Part shown: piece by piece, positions 31,935 to 42,057 of the stretch | Layout of the letters: each line of letters begins with the position of its first letter | How positions within the stretch are numbered: the first letter of the stretch is position 1 | NCBI GenBank assembly: GCA_016926475.1 | Contig: JAFGON010000029.1 | Span: forward strand, 1 to 42,244 | DNA: 42,244 nt | Source of the DNA: a candidate division WOR-3 bacterium | GTDB taxonomy: Bacteria; SDB-A | Direction: 5' to 3' | Translations under genes and position numbers: made by a program | The notes under the pieces: model-generated | Databases searched by the model: none | Seen by the model: only the letters and a program-made list of their open reading frames with translations | What the model was told of the DNA's origin: nothing

Positions 31935-33200
31935 ATGCCGGTCGGAAAACTTAAATATCTTCGTTCACATGAATTAAAATTTCAAAAAGTAGTCCTGAAC
32001 AACGGACTTACAGTATGTTGGGAACAACTCGACCATTTGAGGTCTTGTTCTTTAGCCGTCATTGTAAATACGGGTGCCAGAGATGAAACAGAAAAATCAT
32101 GGGGCTACTCTCACTTTATTGAACACATGCTTTTCAAAGGCACCGCGAAAAAAACACCTTATGAAATAGCCTCAGCACTTGAAAAAAAAGGCGGCTACCT
32201 GAACGCGATGACGGGATCAGAGAACACATGGGTCGAAGCCAGGTTTATAGACCATCAGCTTCCCGAAGTTATGGAATTGATAGGAGACATGCTTTCTGAT
32301 TCTCTTCTCGAAAAAAAGAGCATTGAGGATGAAAAAGAAGTTGTCAGACAGGAGATCAAAAGCAGTTTCGATTCTCCGGACGATATGGTATTCGACCTTT
32401 TTTTCAAAGACATTTTTGGGAAACATCCGCTGGGCAGGTCCGTTTTGGGAAGTTATGAATCTGTCAAAGCCATAACAAGACCTAAACTTTTGAAGTATTA
32501 TCGCCAAAATTACTCCAACACAAACACTTATATTGGACTTGTTGGAAATATATATGGCGATATTACTTCTCTTGTCAAAAAATATTTCAACCTTAGCTCA
32601 AATAAAAAAAACGTAAGAGCTGAATTTAAAAAAAGTTACATTGGATATAAAACGCATAGAAAAACTTTGGCGAAGCAGATAAACTTTATAATTGGCGGAG
32701 TGGCTCCCAACGCATCTTCTCCAGATAGATACAGGTTCCAAATTTTGATGAATCATCTTGGAGGCGGTTTGAGCAGCAGATTTTTCCAGCTTCTGAGAGA
32801 GGTAAACCCTCTTGTGTACAATGTCTCTTCTTTTTATTACCCTTATTCAGACGTAGGTATCGGTGGTCTTTACATATCAGTTTCCGCGGACAACTTAAAA
32901 AAAGTTGAAAAACTTGTAGAAAACGAAATAAAAATTATCATGGAAAACGGCTTCACGAAAGATGAAATTGAATTCTCCAAAGAACAGATGAAGGGCAATA
33001 TCATTCTCGGACTCGAATCGAGTAAATCGAGGGTGAGTAAACTCCTGAACGACCAAATTTATAGAGGAAGGTGGATATCCATGGAAGAGACCGAATCGGA
33101 GATATCAAAGGTCACTGACCAGGATGTCAATGTTGAAGCTTTTAAATTTTTTTCTGATAAAAACATAATGAGGACTTACCTGAAACCGAAAGCGAGGTGA
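31935..33200 (+). CDS. M16-family zinc metallopeptidase (processing-peptidase type)
   Basis: A 421-residue protease of the pitrilysin/MPP type. The inverted zinc motif HxxEH is present as His60-Glu63-His64 (YSHFIEHMLFKGTAKK), with the distal Glu in the EDEKEVVRQEI region near residues 132-142. The C-terminal half includes the family's GGGLSSRFFQLLRE motif. This matches the one-chain homologues (YmxG/MlpA type) found next to pnp in many bacteria. It probably acts on peptides in the cytoplasm, as no signal peptide is seen. Its stop overlaps the upstream GTG alternative of the next gene. Confidence 0.93.
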   Translation: MPVGKLKYLRSHELKFQKVVLNNGLTVCWEQLDHLRSCSLAVIVNTGARDETEKSWGYSHFIEHMLFKGTAKKTPYEIASALEKKGGYLNAMTGSENTWVEARFIDHQLPEVMELIGDMLSDSLLEKKSIEDEKEVVRQEIKSSFDSPDDMVFDLFFKDIFGKHPLGRSVLGSYESVKAITRPKLLKYYRQNYSNTNTYIGLVGNIYGDITSLVKKYFNLSSNKKNVRAEFKKSYIGYKTHRKTLAKQINFIIGGVAPNASSPDRYRFQILMNHLGGGLSSRFFQLLREVNPLVYNVSSFYYPYSDVGIGGLYISVSADNLKKVEKLVENEIKIIMENGFTKDEIEFSKEQMKGNIILGLESSKSRVSKLLNDQIYRGRWISMEETESEISKVTDQDVNVEAFKFFSDKNIMRTYLKPKAR

Positions 33201-33202
33201 CG

Positions 33203-34402
33203 ATGAGCTCTATCAATTTGTCTAAAAAAGCGATAGAAATGCCTGCCTCACCTATTAGAAAACTTCAGACGTATTCAGACGAAGCTAAATCTAAAGGAGT
33301 GGGAGTTTATCATTTGAATATTGGACAACCCGACATAAACACCCCAAAAATCATCTTTGAATCCATGCACAAGTGGGACAGTCAAGTTTTATCCTATGGA
33401 CCTTCCAACGGCATTTTTGAGCTCAGAAAAGCCGTCAGCAATTACCTCGAGAGATTCGACGCTAATTTTCTGCCCTCTCAGATCGTAGTGACACAAGGCG
33501 GCAGCGAAGCGATAGTTTTCGCTATGCAGGCTATATGCAACCCCGGGGAGCAAATAATTGTCTTCGAGCCCTTTTACACGAATTACCTCGGTTTTTCAAA
33601 GATGGCCGATGTTGAGTTGGTGCCGGTTGCGACTTCGGTCGAAGACGGATTCAGAATTCCGAAAGACGAGGTCATAGAACCAAAAATCACCCAAAGGACA
33701 AGGGGCATTATTATATGTTCACCAAACAACCCGACAGGGACTGTATATACTCATGAAGAAATGGAAAGGATAGCTCGACTCGCCCGAAAGCATGACTTGT
33801 TCGTGCTCTCGGACGAAGTTTACAGGGAATTTGTCTTTGACGGTAAAGAGCATGTCGGAATATACGCGTTTGACAATATAGCGGACAGAGCTATTGTAAT
33901 GGACAGCGTTTCAAAGCGTTTTTCAATGTGCGGGGCAAGAATAGGGTACTTGGCGACAAAAAATCCAACCCTTTCTGACGCTTTTCTTCGGTTCTCCCAG
34001 GCACGCCTTTGCCCAGCTACAGTAGAGCAAATCGGAGCTTTAGCGGGATTTGAGCATTATGACGAATTTATACCGGACATGATCAAAGAATATGAAAACC
34101 GAAGGAACACAGTATATGAAGAGATTTTGAAAATAAAAAAAGCTTTCACACTCAAACCCGAAGGGGCTTTTTACTGTGTCGTTAAACTGCCGGTGGATGA
34201 CGCCGACGAATTCGCCAAATTTATGCTCACTGATTTCAATTACGAGGGTCAGACCACAATGGTAGCCCCGGCAAATGGATTCTACGTCTCGAGAGACAAG
34301 GGAAAAAACGAAATCAGAATTGCTTATGTCCTTGAAGAAAAAAGGTTGAAATCCGCGATAGATGTCCTTGAAAGAGGTATAGAAGCATTCAATTCGAGGT
34401 AA
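33203..34402 (+). CDS. Class I/II aminotransferase (aspartate-aminotransferase-like)
   Basis: A PLP-dependent transaminase of 399 residues. It has YHLNIGQPDINTP near the N-terminus, the GGSEAI(V) phosphate loop, the CSPNNPTGTVYT motif, SDEVYREFVF, the Schiff-base lysine in SVSKRFSMCGARIGYL and the C-terminal NEIRIAYVLEE arginine motif. These define the fold I family near AspC/aromatic aminotransferases, and the acceptor keto acid cannot be decided from sequence. An aromatic-amino-acid role would match IorAB elsewhere in the window, but that is inference. I chose ATG 33203; a GTG two codons earlier is possible. The gene overlaps the predicted start of dut. Confidence 0.88.
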   Translation: MSSINLSKKAIEMPASPIRKLQTYSDEAKSKGVGVYHLNIGQPDINTPKIIFESMHKWDSQVLSYGPSNGIFELRKAVSNYLERFDANFLPSQIVVTQGGSEAIVFAMQAICNPGEQIIVFEPFYTNYLGFSKMADVELVPVATSVEDGFRIPKDEVIEPKITQRTRGIIICSPNNPTGTVYTHEEMERIARLARKHDLFVLSDEVYREFVFDGKEHVGIYAFDNIADRAIVMDSVSKRFSMCGARIGYLATKNPTLSDAFLRFSQARLCPATVEQIGALAGFEHYDEFIPDMIKEYENRRNTVYEEILKIKKAFTLKPEGAFYCVVKLPVDDADEFAKFMLTDFNYEGQTTMVAPANGFYVSRDKGKNEIRIAYVLEEKRLKSAIDVLERGIEAFNSR

Positions 34403-34824
34403 AATACATCTTTTTAAACCCGGAGGCATACCCTCCCGAATATTCAACGGAATTCTCCGCCGGAGCGGATTTGAGAAGTTGCGAGGAAATAATCATCAAG
34501 TCGTTTAATTGGGGCGCCGTCAGAACCGGCTTGGCAATTGAGATTCCACAAGGGTTCCACGCGGAGATAAGACCGAGGTCGGGTCTCGCTCTCAAGAGCG
34601 GCATAACTGTGCTCAATTCACCCGGCACCATAGACTCCGACTACAGGGGCGAAGTTTTGATAATACTCGCGAATTTTTCCAAGGATGATTTCATTGTTCA
34701 AAAAGGCGACAGAATAGCCCAGATGGTGATAACGGAATCCCAAAAAGCCGCTTTTGTCAGATTCGATTCCCTTTCATCGACACGGAGGGGTGATGGCGGA
34801 TTTGGCCACACAGGAATCAACTGA
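34387..34824 (+). CDS. dut: dUTP diphosphatase, probable ATT start
   Basis: Hydrolyses dUTP to dUMP and PPi, keeping uracil out of DNA and feeding dTMP synthesis. All five trimeric dUTPase motifs are seen: AGADLRS (residues 25-31), RPRSGLA, GTIDSDYRGE, GDRIAQMV and the C-terminal RGDGGFGHTG. The first canonical start codon in frame, TTG 34471, cuts off motif 1, so translation must start upstream. The frame is open back to 34372 and holds no ATG, GTG, TTG or CTG there. ATT 34387 fits best: it gives 145 residues, normal for the family, with AGAGG 10 bases upstream. It overlaps the aminotransferase end. Confidence 0.9.
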   Translation: MQFEVKYIFLNPEAYPPEYSTEFSAGADLRSCEEIIIKSFNWGAVRTGLAIEIPQGFHAEIRPRSGLALKSGITVLNSPGTIDSDYRGEVLIILANFSKDDFIVQKGDRIAQMVITESQKAAFVRFDSLSSTRRGDGGFGHTGIN

Positions 34825-35851
34825 AAAGATTTTATTCAGCATTTGGCCAGGCCTCGGAGACATTCTTTTTTCGACTCCTTCTTTTAGAATACTGAGAAAA
34901 AAAAAACCGAACGCCAAAATAACCGTCGTCAGTTTTTGGGGCGGAGCGGGTAAAAAACTCCTTGAAATGAATCCTTACGTAGATGAAGTGATATTTTCAT
35001 CTCCGGGTCGGATATTAAAACTTCTCTCCGAGTTTAAAAAAAGAAAATTCGACATCGGAATCGAACAGTCTTTTCCGGTTTTTTGGTTTTTCAAACTCGC
35101 CAAAATAAAAAAAAACTTCAGTTTTGCCGACAATTTTTTCTGGTGGCTTCTGCCAATTTCTCCCAAGAAAAACGCCGATCTGCACGCAAGCGAGCAATAC
35201 CTGCTCGCGATAGATAAAATTGACGGCGTAAAACTCCGGGACAACAAGGGGTACGACCTTTTTTTATCCCAAGAGGAGACTGATAAGGCGAAGCGCCTTC
35301 TCAAAGATTTGGGTGAAAAAAGAAAATTGGTAGTCCACCCCGGAGCCAGGTGCAACAAAAATAAAAGATGGGACATAAAAAAGATAATTAAAACCTTGGA
35401 AATTGCCGTCGAATCAAACGACTTGATCACGATCACCGTCGGGGGAAAGGAAGACGAGGAGAACGCTTTTTTGATCGAGAAATCTCTTGGATCCAAAAAC
35501 CTGAATTTAGTCGGAAAAACAAATTTAAGAGAGACTGCCGCGGTTTTCAGCGAGTCAGACCTATACCTGGGGCATGATTCAGGTCCTACCCATCTCGCAT
35601 CCATATTCATTCCTATCGTGGCAATTTTCGCTTCGTCCAACCCAAAAAACTTCCGCCCTTTGACAGACAAAGCGATAATTGTCAGACCCCGATCTTCATG
35701 CTCGCCTTGTTTTCATTTTCCAGGTTACATGAATCTTTTCTGGGGTTTGAGGCTGAGGTGGTTTAACTATTGTCCCGCAATGGACACAATTAGCGTCCAA
35801 GAAGTCGTTGGCGCAATAGACGAGGCTCTGAGAAAATGGCAAAAAAAATGA
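34793..35851 (+). CDS. GT9-family glycosyltransferase (heptosyltransferase type)
   Basis: A 352-residue GT-B enzyme like LPS heptosyltransferases (WaaC/WaaF), which transfer ADP-heptose to the lipid-linked core on the cytoplasmic face. It has the N-terminal WPGLGDILFSTPSFRILRKK, a donor-side VVHPGA motif, and LYLGHDSGPTHLASIFIP near the C-terminus, the family's D.GP.H motif. The CSPCFHFPGY and NYCPAMDTISVQEV segments also match. It starts inside dut (32-base overlap) with GGAGG four bases upstream and overlaps the acyltransferase that follows. Heptose as the sugar is not proven. Confidence 0.87.
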   Translation: MADLATQESTEKILFSIWPGLGDILFSTPSFRILRKKKPNAKITVVSFWGGAGKKLLEMNPYVDEVIFSSPGRILKLLSEFKKRKFDIGIEQSFPVFWFFKLAKIKKNFSFADNFFWWLLPISPKKNADLHASEQYLLAIDKIDGVKLRDNKGYDLFLSQEETDKAKRLLKDLGEKRKLVVHPGARCNKNKRWDIKKIIKTLEIAVESNDLITITVGGKEDEENAFLIEKSLGSKNLNLVGKTNLRETAAVFSESDLYLGHDSGPTHLASIFIPIVAIFASSNPKNFRPLTDKAIIVRPRSSCSPCFHFPGYMNLFWGLRLRWFNYCPAMDTISVQEVVGAIDEALRKWQKK

Positions 35852-36687
35852 AGGCGGCTTTTTGGATCTGTTCCAAAACAGATCCTCTTGTAATTCAGTT
35901 TTCTGTGCTGGCAACGGCTCTTGTTATAATGATGTTCGCCCGGGTAAAAAGGCGCGTGATAGCGGATAATTTCAAGTCTATGGGGCTGAAACCACAACTA
36001 AAATCAACTTTTAGGGTTTTTTACAACATGGTTTTCAACATAGTTGTCTTTTTAAGAAGCCTTGAAAAGGGGATGGATGAAATTGCCATGAGGACAAGCT
36101 TTGTAGGTATAAAAAACTTAAAAAAAATATCCACTAAAAAAAGTGTAATCATGGTCACCTGCCACCTTGGGTTATGGGATCTCGCGGCGAGGTACTTGGG
36201 TTTTTTCGGCATAGAAGTAATAGCTGTCGCTGAGTATAAAAACGTCAGCCATTTCCATTACGAACTCATGAAAAGGGTGAGGTCTTCTTCTTCGGTTCAA
36301 ATACTGCCTCTCGAGAACGATACAACCCCTATAAAATTGGCGAAATTTGCAAAGAGGAATAAGGGCGCTGTCGCTCTAGTAGGCGACAGGGACATATCTG
36401 GGACTGGAAAAGAGACCGTTTTTTTCGGCAGAAAAGCTCGCCTGCCCCTGGGCCCATCTCTTTTGGCCGCCCGTCTTGACATACCCGTTGTTATAGGATA
36501 CTTTGTTAGAAGTAAGGCGTGGAATTACAGAGCTTACACTTCAGAACCTATATATTTGCCCAAAGGCTGCTGCGACATGAAAAAAAAAACAGAAATGTAT
36601 TTTGACGGAATCAAAAACGCTATGGAAAAGATAATTGCGGAGTACCCCGATCAGTGGATCATGTTTCATCCGCCGTGGATAAAATGA
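35836..36687 (+). CDS. LpxL/HtrB-type lipid acyltransferase
   Basis: A 283-residue membrane-associated acyltransferase related to lipid A late acyltransferases and to PatA of phosphatidylinositol-mannoside synthesis. The catalytic HX4D motif is His110...Asp115 (CHLGLWDLAARY); other family marks are GDRDISGTG and FFGRKARLPLGPSLLAARL. The ending WIMFHPPW is typical of LpxL/MsbB. An N-terminal hydrophobic stretch (about residues 16-34) anchors it. GAGG lies 10 bases before ATG 35836; ATG 35848, which overlaps the GT9 stop as ATGA, is an alternative. The next gene is a PimA-like glycosyltransferase, so the natural substrate may be a glycolipid other than lipid A. Confidence 0.87.
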   Translation: MAKKMKAAFWICSKTDPLVIQFSVLATALVIMMFARVKRRVIADNFKSMGLKPQLKSTFRVFYNMVFNIVVFLRSLEKGMDEIAMRTSFVGIKNLKKISTKKSVIMVTCHLGLWDLAARYLGFFGIEVIAVAEYKNVSHFHYELMKRVRSSSSVQILPLENDTTPIKLAKFAKRNKGAVALVGDRDISGTGKETVFFGRKARLPLGPSLLAARLDIPVVIGYFVRSKAWNYRAYTSEPIYLPKGCCDMKKKTEMYFDGIKNAMEKIIAEYPDQWIMFHPPWIK

Positions 36688-37877
36688 GACGAAAACTAAA
36701 AATCCTCATACTATCCGACGTCTATTATCCTACCCCAGGAGGCGTAAGCGAGCACATTTATAATTTTGCCATGAACATGAGAAATCGGGGGCACAGGGTT
36801 GTAATTGTCGCGCCTAGGGGACTGGGGAAAAAAAAATCACCCGACGGGGATTTTGACGTAATCAGGGCAGGAAAAGCAATACCATTCAGGGCTAACAAAA
36901 GCGTTGCCAAGGTCACGGCGGGTTTAAGAGTTTATTGGGAAGTAAAAGATATCATCAGAAATTACGATTGGGATGTGATCCACACCCACGGACCTTTCGC
37001 TCCGGTAATGCCTATGTTGGGGCAAAAATTCGATTCGAGAGCTTCTCTGATAGGAGAACACGTAACAGCAAAAATCGCAACTTTTCACGCCAGTTACAGA
37101 AAAGTTTTGCCCTACGAGATTTTCAAAGCTTACCTAAAAAAACCATTTTCAAAAATCGACGGTTTGATAGCTGTGAGTGAAGAAGCAAAGAAAAGCGTCG
37201 AGCAGTATTTTGAAGGCGATTTCGCGATAATACCCAACGGAGTCAATTCTGAATTTTTTAATCCAGAGCTCAAGAGAATTGAAAACTTCGACAGCTCTGA
37301 TTTCAATATTTTTTTTGCCGGGAGATTTGACCCCAGAAAAGGGGTAAACTACCTGGTCAAAAGTTTCTATTTTATTCTTAAATTCGTACCCAACGCGAAA
37401 CTCTGGATAGGCGGCGGCGACAGATACAGAAAACTCGGCCTCGACCTGATAATGGCAAGGTTGAAAGCCAAGAATCATGAAATCGCCAAGAGGGTCGAAT
37501 ACCTCAAGTTTATCCCTTTTTCACAGTTACCCCGTTATTTCAAAAGTGCCGATGTTTTTTGTTCGCCGGCGATAGGCGGAGAGAGTTTTGGAATAGTCCT
37601 TATAGAGGCAATGTCATGCGGAACTCCGGTTGTCGCTTCGGACATACCCGGGTACAGAGAAGTCGTCTCCGACGGGAAAGACGGACTTCTTTTCAGGCCT
37701 AAGGACATAAAAGACCTTGCAAAAAAAATAGTGTTTTTAGCGCAAAATCCAGAAGTTAGAAAAAAAATGGGTTTTGCAGGAAGGGAAAAGGTTCTCGCGA
37801 AGTATTCTTGGGACAAAGTCACCGACATCATCGAAAACTACTATTACGATATTCTCATCCAGAAGTCCCATGAATAA
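36684..37877 (+). CDS. GT4-family glycosyltransferase, PimA-like
   Basis: A 397-residue GT-B glycosyltransferase close in pattern to PimA and other lipid-sugar mannosyl/glucosyltransferases. It has YPTPGGVSEHIYNFA at the N-terminus, DVIHTHGPFAP, NGVNSEFF, FAGRFDPRKGVNYLV and the donor loop GGESFGIVLIEAMSCGTPVVAS with a complete EX7E. ATG 36684 overlaps the acyltransferase stop as ATGA, so the two are translated together. A glycolipid product is likely from context (acyltransferase before, UbiA prenyltransferase after), while the sugar and lipid acceptor remain unknown. Confidence 0.88.
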   Translation: MRRKLKILILSDVYYPTPGGVSEHIYNFAMNMRNRGHRVVIVAPRGLGKKKSPDGDFDVIRAGKAIPFRANKSVAKVTAGLRVYWEVKDIIRNYDWDVIHTHGPFAPVMPMLGQKFDSRASLIGEHVTAKIATFHASYRKVLPYEIFKAYLKKPFSKIDGLIAVSEEAKKSVEQYFEGDFAIIPNGVNSEFFNPELKRIENFDSSDFNIFFAGRFDPRKGVNYLVKSFYFILKFVPNAKLWIGGGDRYRKLGLDLIMARLKAKNHEIAKRVEYLKFIPFSQLPRYFKSADVFCSPAIGGESFGIVLIEAMSCGTPVVASDIPGYREVVSDGKDGLLFRPKDIKDLAKKIVFLAQNPEVRKKMGFAGREKVLAKYSWDKVTDIIENYYYDILIQKSHE

Positions 37878-38721
37878 AAATCAGTTTTCCGCCGGAGTTG
37901 CAGGAGCTTTTTTTTCTTTTTATATCTACAAAAGAGGTCTTTTCGACAAGTCCTTAACTCCGATACTCCTTTACCACGACGTCACGGACAGGTTTTATTG
38001 GACGTTTTCGAGGACTACAGTTCACTTGTTCAGAAAACAAATGTCTCTGCTGAGAAAAAAAGACTTTTTCGGCGTCGGAATAAAGGAGGCTGCGAGAAAT
38101 AAAACATCGGATAAAATGTTCGCGATAACTTTCGACGACGCTCTCGAATCTGTCGCAGAGAACGCTTTTCCTGTTATCGAAGGGGAGGGATTCAAAGCTG
38201 ATGTCTATATAGTGACCGACTATGCCGGCAGGACAAGCGCTGAATGGGACGTAAATCTCGGAGGCATAGTCAAAAAACACATGGACTGGGACAAAATAGC
38301 CTTCTTGTCCCAAAAAGGATGGGGGATAGGGTCGCACTCCTGCACGCACAGAGATTTGACCTTGCTGACGCCCGATGAGGTGAGTGAAGAAGCCGAGAGA
38401 TCCAAACAGGAGATTATCGAAAAAACAGGAGTCAAACCGGCTTTTTTCAGCTATCCGTTCGGAAGGACAAACCCAAAAATAGCCCGAATAATACAGAAAG
38501 CCGGCTACGACGGCGCTGTAACTTCCTACCCTAACCGCAATTCGTGTTTTGACCCTTTTATGATCGGCAGAAGACCGGTCTATCTCTTCGACAGCGCCTT
38601 TGACGTCCTGAGAAGAGTCGAGAGATCTTCTTGGAAAAATATTCCCTACGACTTTGCAGGGAGAGGCATAAACTTTTTCGCGAGGGGAGTCGGAATTTAC
38701 AAGGAAAAAATCGAAAAATGA
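37870..38721 (+). CDS. Polysaccharide deacetylase-family protein
   Basis: A 283-residue NodB-fold (carbohydrate esterase 4-like) hydrolase that would remove N-acetyl or similar groups from a glycan. It has the ITFDDAL motif (Asp89, Asp90) and GSHSCTH with metal-binding His156 and His160, then SYPFGR.N as motif 3. The N-terminal hydrophobic stretch (about residues 8-19) suggests membrane anchoring. ATG 37870 overlaps the glycosyltransferase stop by eight bases without a ribosome site of its own. Within the operon it may trim the sugar chain of the glycolipid, which is inference. Confidence 0.86.
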   Translation: MNKNQFSAGVAGAFFSFYIYKRGLFDKSLTPILLYHDVTDRFYWTFSRTTVHLFRKQMSLLRKKDFFGVGIKEAARNKTSDKMFAITFDDALESVAENAFPVIEGEGFKADVYIVTDYAGRTSAEWDVNLGGIVKKHMDWDKIAFLSQKGWGIGSHSCTHRDLTLLTPDEVSEEAERSKQEIIEKTGVKPAFFSYPFGRTNPKIARIIQKAGYDGAVTSYPNRNSCFDPFMIGRRPVYLFDSAFDVLRRVERSSWKNIPYDFAGRGINFFARGVGIYKEKIEK

Positions 38722-39722
38722 CCCTGCAGTTGACGAGGTCTCCGAAAAATTTCGCTGAAAAAATTTTAGACAGAATATTCGTTATGAGAATTTTTATGCA
38801 TTTTCCGTTTTCCGGCATTTTGATGCTCGGTTATTTATACGGCCTGCAAACTTCTTCCGACGGCGGCTTTATTGCTCTGTTTCTACGAGCAAATACATTC
38901 AATATGAAAATTTTTGTATCTTACCTCGTGTTTTATGTTCTAATGGGCGGAACATACGTTGTAAACCAGATCATAGACAGGCAATCGGACCTGATAAACA
39001 GAAAGAACTATTTCATCTCCGACGGACATATGTCGATTCAGTCCTCGGTTTTAGAAGCAATTATCCTTTACTCACTTTCACTCGGCTTTGCCCTTTACTT
39101 GTCCTTAAAAGGCTATTTCGTAGGCGGGGCTGCATACTTCTGGGCTGTATTGTCATCTGTCATTCTCGGGCTACTGTATTCCGTAAAACCTTTCAGGTTG
39201 AACGCCAGACCGGGTCTGGACATGGCTGCAAACGCTTTCGGTTACGGTTTTTTAAACCTATCCACGGGTTATCTCGTCGTGGCGCCTTTCGGTTTGGATC
39301 TCGTGAAAATCGCGGCACCGATTGTTCTCATAGGTCTTGCCGGATTCGGCTCGACTACAATTGCGGATATTGAAGGGGACAAAAAAGACGGTAAAATCTC
39401 AATAGGAGTCTTTCTCGGAGAAAAGAAAACCTACTGGTTCTCCATAATTCTCTACATAGCGGCTTTTGTGCTCTCGTTGCTAATGAAAAATATTCCATGT
39501 CTTTTCGCTTCCGCGATAGCGATTCCAGCGCATATTCTGGGTTTAACCAAAAGCACAAAAAAGTCGGCGCTCGTGACGATGAGAATAAGCAACGCCGGTC
39601 TCGTTCTTATCTCTTTTGTAATTTTTCCGGTTTTGATAGCCGCTTTTCTGCTGGTATTTTTGATGACGAAACTATACTACAAAAATAGATTCGGTATTGA
39701 CTACCCTTCGCTTACGAAATGA
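38718..39722 (+). CDS. UbiA-family prenyltransferase
   Basis: A 334-residue integral membrane enzyme with eight or nine predicted helices. The two Mg-prenyl-diphosphate motifs are present: N83-xxx-D87-xxx-D91 (NQIIDRQSD) and D217-xxx-D221 followed by Asp224 (DIEGDKKDGK). The family joins a prenyl chain to an aromatic ring, a heme/chlorin, a sugar or glycerol phosphate. The SVKPFRLNARPGLDMAANAFGYG segment resembles the UbiA clade near bacteriochlorophyll/DGGGP-type synthases, but no clade is certain. No quinone genes are present. It starts with an ATGA overlap after the deacetylase and ends the same way before the next gene. Confidence 0.87.
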   Translation: MTLQLTRSPKNFAEKILDRIFVMRIFMHFPFSGILMLGYLYGLQTSSDGGFIALFLRANTFNMKIFVSYLVFYVLMGGTYVVNQIIDRQSDLINRKNYFISDGHMSIQSSVLEAIILYSLSLGFALYLSLKGYFVGGAAYFWAVLSSVILGLLYSVKPFRLNARPGLDMAANAFGYGFLNLSTGYLVVAPFGLDLVKIAAPIVLIGLAGFGSTTIADIEGDKKDGKISIGVFLGEKKTYWFSIILYIAAFVLSLLMKNIPCLFASAIAIPAHILGLTKSTKKSALVTMRISNAGLVLISFVIFPVLIAAFLLVFLMTKLYYKNRFGIDYPSLTK

Positions 39723-40687
39723 ACGACCAGAAAAAAAAGATATTGATAAGAGAGGGAGGCGTTTCAAAAAGGCCTGGCTGGCCATTTCTTTTTGAGATGG
39801 GGTTGCACGTCGAAGGGCTTTTTGATGAATTCGTTTCTGATGATGATAAACAAATCAGTTCTTTCAGGGAACTTTCCGCTTTTAAAAAAAGAACATTGCC
39901 GAAAATACTCAGAGCAGGGGAATTCTCCTCAACCCTCGTGGATAACCTTGAATATCAGATTTTGCACCACGTTATTTACACAGAGTACGTAATCAACTTC
40001 ACTAACTTCTCCGAAGACCTCAAATTTCTCGACGACACTCTGATGTCAGCTTATTACCTGCTAATGGAGAAATCACAGCGGATGGGTGGATATTTTTCAA
40101 TTGTCCCTGAACTGGAAACATCTGTGGAAGAAAAGATTTTCATAGATTGCCTCGAATTGTGTGTCGACCTCAAACACAGAAACATAATAAAAGGGATTTT
40201 GCTCCTCAGGAGAGGCGATGCTTCCATATCGACCTACTCGAACAAAATAAATGATTCCGGTCTTAGTTTGATACTTGATTTTTCGACTAAAATTGACAAA
40301 AACAGATTCTTTGAAGAGATAGGACTTTCCGGAGTTAGAAGAATTCATTACAACGCGAGGATAGAAGGCTTTTTGAAAGAGATGAGAAAGAAAAATATCT
40401 CAATTCAGATTTCACCGACATCGGACGTGTCTTTTTTTTCTAACTTCTCCTTCGCCGACTATCCTTTCGTAGAATATTTCAGAAAAGGCAACAAAACAGT
40501 TGTTTCCGGAGGATACCCCAAGCTGACGGACACATCCACCGAGAGTGAATTTGTACTTCTCAAATCGTCTTTTGGACTGTCGGTCGAAGACATATTGACG
40601 ATTTCAAAATACTCCGCTAATTATGCTTTTTGCGACGAAGCGGCGAGAGAGTCTCTTTTGCAAAAAATCGAATCTGTCAATCCGTGA
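39719..40687 (+). CDS. Adenosine-deaminase-like pseudoenzyme
   Basis: A 322-residue protein that aligns along most of its length with adenosine/AMP-deaminase-family proteins but lacks the catalytic residues. ADA's HxH becomes Gly28-x-His30 (EMGLHVEG). HAGE becomes Asp187-Phe-Ser-Thr190. RIGHG becomes RIHYN (His to Tyr211). The NTDDP metal/catalytic motif becomes SGGYP (Gly265, Tyr266). Structural landmarks are kept: ISPTSD (231-236), the TDTSTESEF stretch after the lost DDP, and FGLSVEDILTISKYSANYAF. Zinc binding and deamination are therefore not expected. It overlaps UbiA as ATGA and ends the operon; a binding or regulatory role is inference. Confidence 0.75.
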   Translation: MNDQKKKILIREGGVSKRPGWPFLFEMGLHVEGLFDEFVSDDDKQISSFRELSAFKKRTLPKILRAGEFSSTLVDNLEYQILHHVIYTEYVINFTNFSEDLKFLDDTLMSAYYLLMEKSQRMGGYFSIVPELETSVEEKIFIDCLELCVDLKHRNIIKGILLLRRGDASISTYSNKINDSGLSLILDFSTKIDKNRFFEEIGLSGVRRIHYNARIEGFLKEMRKKNISIQISPTSDVSFFSNFSFADYPFVEYFRKGNKTVVSGGYPKLTDTSTESEFVLLKSSFGLSVEDILTISKYSANYAFCDEAARESLLQKIESVNP

Positions 40688-42005
40688 GATAGACCGTTTC
40701 GCCAAGTGACGGCCTGTGCACTTCAAGTTCGGAAGATAGCTCGGATTGTATGTTTTCGAGTGCGGGTTTGTCGCCGTGAACGAGTATTAGTTTCGAGGGC
40801 GACATTTTTTTCACCATGCTCAGGAGTTGAGTTTTGTCCGAGTGTGAAGTTATTCTGAAAGATTTGATGTTTGGATTGCACTTTTCGGCTTTGTCTCCTC
40901 TTTTGTCGAGATCCACAATTTCTCCTATTGCCGAATTGAGTATTCTGTGAGCCGGCGAGTCCGGATCTATGTACCCAACGAAAAATATTGCATTTTTTTC
41001 GCTTCTCAATATCCTTCTCGCCAATTTATACGACGGAGTTCCCGGCATGACCATACCGCTGGTCATAAGTAAAATAGACGGCCCGTAGTCCAGAATTTTA
41101 TCTATTGAAGTGTCTCCTCTGAGGTTGATTTCCACAGCCGAATAGGGTCTGTATGTGTTTCCCAGATATTTTGTGTACAATCTTTTAATTTTTTTCCCCA
41201 GCCCGGCAAGGACAATCGGTACGTAAGGTATTTTTCCTTTGCTCATGAGTTTTTCGCAGATCCCGAGGACTTCTTGGGTTTTACCGAGGGCGAAAGTTGG
41301 GCAGAGGACGGATTGCCTTTTGTCGAGTATTTTGGATATTTCTCTGGCAAAAATTTCTATTTCTTCATCCCTCCTCAAAGCCACATCTTCTTCCAGTCCC
41401 AGAGTTCCTTCCATTATAAGCACATCGGGTTTGAGGTTTTCAATATCTGCTCCAGGGACAGTCATTTGATCGAAAAGCGATATATCTCCCGTGTAGAGAA
41501 CCGTGATTTTGGGGGATTCAACGAAAAAAGACCTTGCGCCCAGTATATGTCCGGCTTTATACGAGAATACGTTTACGTTTCCTTTGAGCCTTAGAGATTG
41601 GGATTTACCCAGTGGTTTTATGGATTTTGAAGCTTTTCTCGCGTCTTTTTCTGAATATAGAGGTTCAGGAAAATTTTCGGGGTCTTCCCGGTAGTGTCTT
41701 TCCTGGACCGAAGCAGAATCTTCGAGCATGAACCTGCTGATAGCTATGGTAGGCTTGCTCGCGTAGAATTGAATCTGTCTGAAAAAAAGAGGCAAAGCTC
41801 CGATGTGGTCGAGATGGGAATGGGTTATCAAGCCCAAATCAGGCAGAGAAGAGAAGAAATCGACAACAGGCAGGGCTTCCGAGCCGATTTTTTTCGGATG
41901 CATTCCGCAGTCGAGAAGTATTTTTGACCCGTTGAGAAAAAGCGAAAAAGAACTCGCTCCGATCTCGTTGCCGCTACCGAACACTTTTAAGAAATCATTT
42001 TCCAT
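40677..42005 (-). CDS. Beta-CASP metallo-beta-lactamase-fold RNase-type hydrolase
   Basis: A 442-residue MBL-fold enzyme with an inserted beta-CASP domain, the architecture of CPSF73/RNase J-like nucleases. Motif 2 is complete as HSHLDH (His62, His64, Asp66, His67), followed by GHILGARSF, YTGDIS and the beta-CASP parts CPTFALGKTQEVL and TSGMVMPGTPS, then the late ITSHSDKTQLLSMV and LVHGD. Most such proteins act as RNA endonucleases or exonucleases. I chose ATG 42005, which places GSGNEIGASSF at the usual distance; TTG 42029 would add eight residues. Neither has a clear ribosome site. Its 3' end overlaps the pseudo-deaminase by 11 bases. Confidence 0.87.
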   Translation of the reverse strand: MENDFLKVFGSGNEIGASSFSLFLNGSKILLDCGMHPKKIGSEALPVVDFFSSLPDLGLITHSHLDHIGALPLFFRQIQFYASKPTIAISRFMLEDSASVQERHYREDPENFPEPLYSEKDARKASKSIKPLGKSQSLRLKGNVNVFSYKAGHILGARSFFVESPKITVLYTGDISLFDQMTVPGADIENLKPDVLIMEGTLGLEEDVALRRDEEIEIFAREISKILDKRQSVLCPTFALGKTQEVLGICEKLMSKGKIPYVPIVLAGLGKKIKRLYTKYLGNTYRPYSAVEINLRGDTSIDKILDYGPSILLMTSGMVMPGTPSYKLARRILRSEKNAIFFVGYIDPDSPAHRILNSAIGEIVDLDKRGDKAEKCNPNIKSFRITSHSDKTQLLSMVKKMSPSKLILVHGDKPALENIQSELSSELEVHRPSLGETVYLTD

Positions 42006-42057
42006 GCTAATATTAAAAAGCTTTGCCAACTAAACATCAAGCATTTTCGGGAGGTTT

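Follow-up and report, generated by a model that had tools for sequence, protein, structure and literature searches.

The window, a stretch of 42,244 nucleotides from a candidate division WOR-3 bacterium (contig JAFGON010000029.1), carries towards its end a row of nine genes on the forward strand, which is followed by a convergent gene:

31935..33200, forward strand: M16-type peptidase (profile match and gene-row comparison)
33197..34402, forward strand: PLP-dependent aminotransferase (profile match)
34405..34824, forward strand: dUTPase reading frame, without ATG, GTG or TTG before 34471
34754..35851, forward strand: GT9 protein, heptosyltransferase family (profile match)
35836..36687, forward strand: LpxL-type lipid A acyltransferase family protein (profile match)
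36654..37877, forward strand: GT4 glycosyltransferase (profile match)
37774..38721, forward strand: polysaccharide deacetylase (profile match)
38718..39722, forward strand: UbiA-family prenyltransferase, 334 aa, directly upstream of the next gene in all four genomes compared
39719..40687, forward strand: pseudo-ADA gene, 322 aa, its start overlapping the UbiA stop by 4 bases
40677..42029, reverse strand: convergent beta-CASP metallo-beta-lactamase protein, aCPSF1-like but below the cut-off; it marks the end of the operon

The subject of our analysis is the last gene of the row, which encodes a homologue of adenosine deaminase (ADA) and is referred to here as pseudo-ADA. It starts with ATG, and its 3′ end shares 11 bases with the beta-CASP gene. 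The coordinates, the reading frame and every motif quoted for it in an earlier note were correct. That note describes the row as an ‘envelope-lipid operon’, a name that suits the GT9, LpxL-type, GT4, deacetylase and UbiA genes, but the row also includes peptidase, aminotransferase and dUTPase genes. A scan of the window for promoters and terminators gave signals no better than those of shuffled sequence. The beta-CASP protein is closest to archaeal aCPSF1 and to the type VII CRISPR protein Cas14, both matches being under the cut-off. The phylum was sampled with four genomes of two genera: that of the window (G000), G001, G002 and G003. The alignment of the dUTPase frame with G001 starts at 34405, ahead of the first ATG, GTG or TTG (34471).

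Pseudo-ADA is an ADA homologue, and the similarity is far beyond chance. The Pfam family A_deaminase (PF00962) matches the window protein with an E-value of 1.9e-8 and 34.2 bits (cut-off 27), at residues 218-319 only, which is the C-terminal third. All four members of the family match PF00962 (threshold E up to 1; best E 3.2e-12), and in the genome scan all four exceed its cut-off. The equivalog level is not reached, as the NCBIfam ADA models give the window protein at most 42.9 bits against a cut-off of 426. A search of the solved structures with the single sequence gave weak matches, with Plasmodium ADAs at the top (E 0.002), and a profile of the four sequences found ADAs at E 6.6e-7. Using hhalign, the four pseudo-ADAs align with 20 ADAs over 309 columns, with a probability of 99.4% and E 4.7e-20.

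Concerning the fold, an AlphaFold2 model of modest confidence (built from three sequences; mean pLDDT 63.8, pTM 0.65) predicts eight strands in barrel order, forming an ADA-type (beta/alpha)8 barrel, with pLDDT below 50 at residues 233-255 and 259-288. For this model, Foldseek ranks adenine deaminase first (3rys, E 9.6e-12), and all 50 matches listed belong to the ADA family, with high rmsd (7.8-12.0 A) and query-normalised TM-scores of 0.48-0.63. VIA-align superposes the model on ADA-family entries with Z 18.1-20.9 and rmsd 3.2-4.5 over 257-292 residues; the next family is AtzC (Z 16.8, rmsd 6.4). A second AlphaFold model, for which the most divergent member served as the starting sequence, is of low quality (pLDDT 49, pTM 0.47); its first 47 matches listed are again ADA-family entries, with Z 12-15. 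The ADA fold proposed in the earlier note is thus borne out by the best PDB matches of the predicted structure. A chance resemblance to ADA was ruled out by the Pfam, hhalign, structure-sequence and fold comparisons.

The conserved and replaced motifs of the window protein are the following:

39767..39784, forward strand: KRPGWP (residues 17-22); R18, G20, W21 and P22 invariant in the four pseudo-ADAs; no ADA motif aligned
39800..39808, forward strand: GLH (residues 28-30), at the HxH zinc motif of ADA; G in all four, then H,H,H,N
39977..40003, forward strand: YTEYVINFT (residues 87-95), strand 2; Y87, T88, E89, I92, N93 and T95 invariant
40103..40114, forward strand: VPEL (residues 129-132), strand 3; invariant
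40277..40288, forward strand: DFST (residues 187-190), at HAGE of ADA; variable among the four
40340..40354, forward strand: RIHYN (residues 208-212), at RIGHG of ADA; Y211 invariant at the position of the catalytic-base His
40409..40426, forward strand: ISPTSD (residues 231-236), strand 7; structural motif retained
40511..40519, forward strand: GYP (residues 265-267), at the DD pair of ADA; invariant in all four

Positions are given in mouse-ADA numbering, which was carried over to the ADA L011 by eye via the motifs; H15, H17 and D295 we take to be zinc ligands of the mouse enzyme, and further lining positions of the pocket were listed as we presume them to be. The correspondences themselves come from hhalign, with residues in the order window, G001, G002, G003. 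The alignment places G28/H30 of the window protein at HxH, D187-T190 at HAGE, Y211 at the His of GHG and G265/Y266 at the DD pair. The first His of HxH (H15) is G in all four proteins and the second (H17) reads H,H,H,N; H214 reads D,D,D,C and E217 reads T,S,T,S, while H238 is Y, D295 is G and D296 is Y throughout. In the part of PMC9483566 available to us, H214 of mouse ADA is described as a zinc ligand, E217 as the proton donor, H238 as the base, and L58/F61/L62/F65 as a wall of the site. The common ancestor of the four genomes sampled had already lost the zinc site and the acid and base residues. The replacements that the earlier note had read from one protein are fixed, since the deaminase site is lost in all four homologues and each copy found in this position lacks the intact motifs. 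That ‘all but one’ catalytic residue is lost holds for the window protein, in which H30 remains; the most distant member has N at this position and retains none.

The other ADAs of our motif survey show no such losses: wherever covered, the motifs are intact in all 46 rows (HxH 42/42, HxGE 45/45, H238 46/46, D295 46/46), so the replacements belong to the pseudo-ADA clade and not to a loosely conserved family. Some pseudo-ADA rows of the survey align with only part of the motif columns (the window row with one of the four), and the positions given above hence derive from the hhalign-based comparisons. With such a site, pseudo-ADA would be unable to deaminate adenosine. The passed Pfam cut-off would speak for a deaminase that is still active through an unorthodox site. 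This is very improbable, as the zinc ligands and the acid and base residues have all been replaced and their positions hold no invariant His/Asp cluster that could substitute for them.

A purine site kept for binding only, in a non-catalytic sensor of nucleosides or nucleotides, had been suggested in the earlier note. ADA homology, H30 (retained in three of the four) and the position of D19, presumably on the ribose side in ADA and E in all four pseudo-ADAs, are in line with such a role. However, the four homologues differ from one another at the positions of D181, A183, G184, H214 and E217, and the wall positions F61, L62 and F65 read F,F,F,L, K and T,I,I,F, respectively. The side of strands 4-5 (former G184, H214, E217) is variable among the pseudo-ADAs, which speaks against retained purine binding, and the domain search of the protein showed neither a regulatory nor a DNA-binding domain. 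The positions of H15, H238 and D295 are replaced as well. Sensing is supported by no result, and we consider it improbable. A scaffolding role, the other job named in the earlier note, is conceivable.

Pseudo-ADA is found in all four sampled genomes of the phylum, the other three copies being 56, 55 and 37% identical to the window protein. A profile of the four sequences gave matches in 63 of 290 genomes; full-length matches occur in four, all of the window's phylum, and among the matches listed in the other 59 genomes the start is at profile position 113 or later. No relative of pseudo-ADA was found in the scan of viral contigs. A metagenome-assembled genome named ‘Desulfuromonas sp. SDB’ (L042, LKUE01000176.1), which NCBI places in Desulfuromonadia, groups with the window's family; based on this grouping we take the NCBI name to be a misnomer.

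The reading frames are intact in all four genomes (322-329 aa). The dN and dS values are 0.23 and 2.0 for G001-G002, 0.32 and 4.0 for window-G001, and 0.33 and 3.2 for window-G002, where dS is near or past saturation, unreliable as a value, and the reading is limited to dN lying far below dS; the window-G003 codon comparison is saturated. Within the genus, changes at third codon positions outnumber those at second positions by a factor of 2.5 to 4, and 84 of the 322 positions are invariant across the two genera. In the same three genomes, the identities to the window's proteins are 59, 59 and 37% for the LpxL-type protein, close to those of pseudo-ADA, and 69, 69 and 52% for UbiA, which is thus better conserved. 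Both the loss of all catalytic residues and a divergence faster than that of UbiA (37% vs 52% identity to the other genus) could suggest a decaying pseudogene or a chance survivor without function, but this was rejected on the intact frames and on dN far below dS; together with the codon-position bias and the invariant positions, they make such a reading hardly credible. Based on the intact frame, the purifying selection and the clade-wide losses in four genomes, pseudo-ADA is judged to be a fixed, phylum-specific and maintained pseudoenzyme. Purifying selection on an ADA homologue without its site makes a job other than deamination likely, and to this extent the maintenance for a non-catalytic job put forward in the earlier note stands. 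Pseudo-ADA is, in our estimate, very probably a conserved non-deaminase homologue of ADA.

A search of 60 genomes with PF00962 revealed an additional full-length ADA in G000, G002 and G003; it is absent from G001. These resident ADAs keep HxH, HAGE, RIGHG and NTD, and that of the window's genome (on C55) passes the NCBIfam cut-off (434 vs 412 bits). In a tree of 45 rows, the pseudo-ADAs form one group with 100/100 support that is set off by a very long branch. The resident ADAs form a separate 100/100 group deep among the normal ADAs, which indicates that pseudo-ADA is no fresh copy of the resident enzyme. The tree left out eight of the 53 rows of the motif survey, namely three refetched pseudo-ADA copies and five partial or very divergent ADAs. 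The pseudo-ADA branch spans 4.1 plus 3.3 changes per column across the midpoint root, and its letter make-up is deviant. The C55 ADA is the weakest match of the pseudo-ADA profile among the matches listed (18.9 bits). A recent duplication of the resident ADA was ruled out by the separate groups and by this weak match.

The gene row is also present in the other three genomes of the phylum, where M16 peptidase, aminotransferase, dUTPase, GT9, LpxL-type acyltransferase, GT4, polysaccharide deacetylase, UbiA and pseudo-ADA are followed by the convergent beta-CASP gene. Pseudo-ADA is the last gene of the conserved nine-gene row in all four. As the earlier note had supposed, it always lies behind the UbiA gene: in three genomes its first bases overlap the UbiA stop, and in the fourth it begins 3 bases after that stop. 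Outside the phylum, UbiA has a match in 23 of 112 genomes, and the surroundings of six of the 23 were examined. In G104, the single genome of its phylum, M16, aminotransferase, GT4, a transporter, LpxL, deacetylase and UbiA are recognisable, and the contig ends just after UbiA. G101 likewise has the deacetylase upstream of UbiA, and in G004, G102 and G047 a geranylgeranyl-reductase-like gene (named by eye) is near UbiA. The pairing of deacetylase and UbiA thus looks older than pseudo-ADA. A locus of another phylum (L103, G102 C163, 2239-4936) contains two tandem UbiA genes and then a deacetylase-like gene.

Concerning UbiA itself, the best solved match of the window protein is digeranylgeranylglyceryl-phosphate (DGGGP) synthase (6m31, E 3.7e-5). 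Pseudo-ADA could accordingly be an accessory of DGGGP synthase in archaeal-type ether-lipid synthesis, with the window UbiA as that enzyme. PcrB/GGGP-synthase and geranylgeranyl-reductase relatives exceed their cut-offs in all four genomes of the phylum (in G000, L114 on C56 and L107 on C96), and the reductase-like genes near the UbiA relatives of G004, G102 and G047 also favour such a role. However, on the geranylgeranylglycerol-phosphate geranylgeranyltransferase model (PRK12882) the window UbiA scores 31.7 bits against a cut-off of 296, whereas another UbiA of the same genome (L123, G000 C32) reaches 121.5; the window UbiA scores higher on chlorophyll-synthase models (60.7), with all scores below cut-off. 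A further UbiA, encoded on the contig of the GGGP-synthase gene at a distance of about 3.5 kb, is similar to a decaprenyl-phosphate phosphoribosyltransferase. The better candidate on C32 and this phosphoribosyltransferase-like UbiA weaken the DGGGP-synthase reading. Glycerol-1-phosphate dehydrogenase was not shown in the searches of the phylum genomes, and CarS-like matches are found in two of the four genomes only. Taken together, we regard an accessory of DGGGP synthase as quite improbable. Archaeal-type ether lipids are possible in this phylum, given the PcrB/GGGP-synthase and geranylgeranyl-reductase relatives and the DGGGP-synthase-like UbiA on C32. The same pair of relatives is reported for Cloacimonetes in the part of PMC7852524 available to us.

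The lost site and the constant position behind the UbiA gene suggest that the protein was probably reused for a different, envelope-building job. In the mechanism that we propose, pseudo-ADA would be a soluble TIM-barrel protein of the cytosol that acts as a partner in the UbiA step and may hold or regulate the prenyltransferase or present its polar acceptor. It would act through a rebuilt barrel mouth comprising the invariant E32, N93, E131, Y211, D236 and G265-Y266-P267 and the N-terminal KRxGWP. Invariant residues make up 9 of the 20 former lining positions vs 75 of the 302 positions elsewhere (one-sided p 0.047). They are equally frequent at the strand tops (20/56) and the strand bottoms (19/56); as the tops show no excess, a rebuilt pocket is only weakly indicated, and the invariant Y211 and GYP weakly suggest that such a mouth lies on the side of strands 6-8.

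The same residues could instead belong to an ADA barrel turned into a new enzyme, in which E32, N93, E131, Y211, D236 and Y266 would form another active site, either zinc-free or with another metal, that acts on an intermediate of the operon, be it a lipid, a sugar or a nucleotide. Strands 1, 2, 3, 6, 7 and 8 carry invariant polar residues at their ends, including the positions of H15, H238 and D295, and these fit such an enzyme; the equal conservation of mouth and bottom and the variable strand 4-5 side do not. We know of no ADA-fold enzyme with this set of invariant residues, which we count against a new enzyme, and its existence is doubtful.

For the UbiA accessory, we infer the coupling from the gene order in four related genomes and from conservation. 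The conserved order spans nine genes and not just the pair of UbiA and pseudo-ADA, and UbiA relatives elsewhere lack pseudo-ADA; both speak against this role. A role as an accessory of the UbiA step is, on its own, somewhat short of an even chance. Our main reading, a non-deaminase ADA homologue that also serves the UbiA step, has a probability of roughly 0.4. Its most specific form, in which the remodelled barrel serves UbiA as a dedicated partner in the cytosol, binds the polar acceptor or the enzyme through the new invariant mouth (E32, N93, E131, Y211, D236, GYP) and thereby determines the specificity of an as yet unrecognised lipid of the envelope, is speculative and by itself unlikely.

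Pseudoenzymes are common, but a search of the open-licence PMC literature found no described pseudoenzyme of the ADA family. The automatic label ‘adenosine deaminase’, which the passed Pfam cut-off would give, would be wrong for pseudo-ADA. A clade-wide pseudo-ADA under selection and translationally tied to the gene of a membrane prenyltransferase would exemplify a purine-salvage barrel moved into envelope assembly. With the ADA family PF00962 (ADA, ADAL/MAPDA and adenine deaminase 3rys) it shares the barrel and full-length homology, and it differs in that its zinc and catalytic residues are replaced in all four homologues (the H17-equivalent His remains in three). Cad1, the CARF-adenosine deaminase of type III CRISPR (9c6c, 8z3p), is among the closest folds (Z about 20); it carries a CARF sensor domain, whereas pseudo-ADA consists of the barrel only. 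The fold-match list also includes ADA bound to CD26/DPPIV (1w1i), a precedent for protein binding by the surface of an ADA barrel, although that ADA is presumably an active enzyme, unlike pseudo-ADA. The prozymes of Trypanosoma brucei, such as the AdoMetDC prozyme, are similar in being dead paralogues kept to regulate an enzyme, as described in the available parts of PMC5201418 and PMC6221367; there, prozymes pair with their own active paralogue, whereas the resident ADA is far from pseudo-ADA in the genome and its neighbour is an unrelated prenyltransferase.
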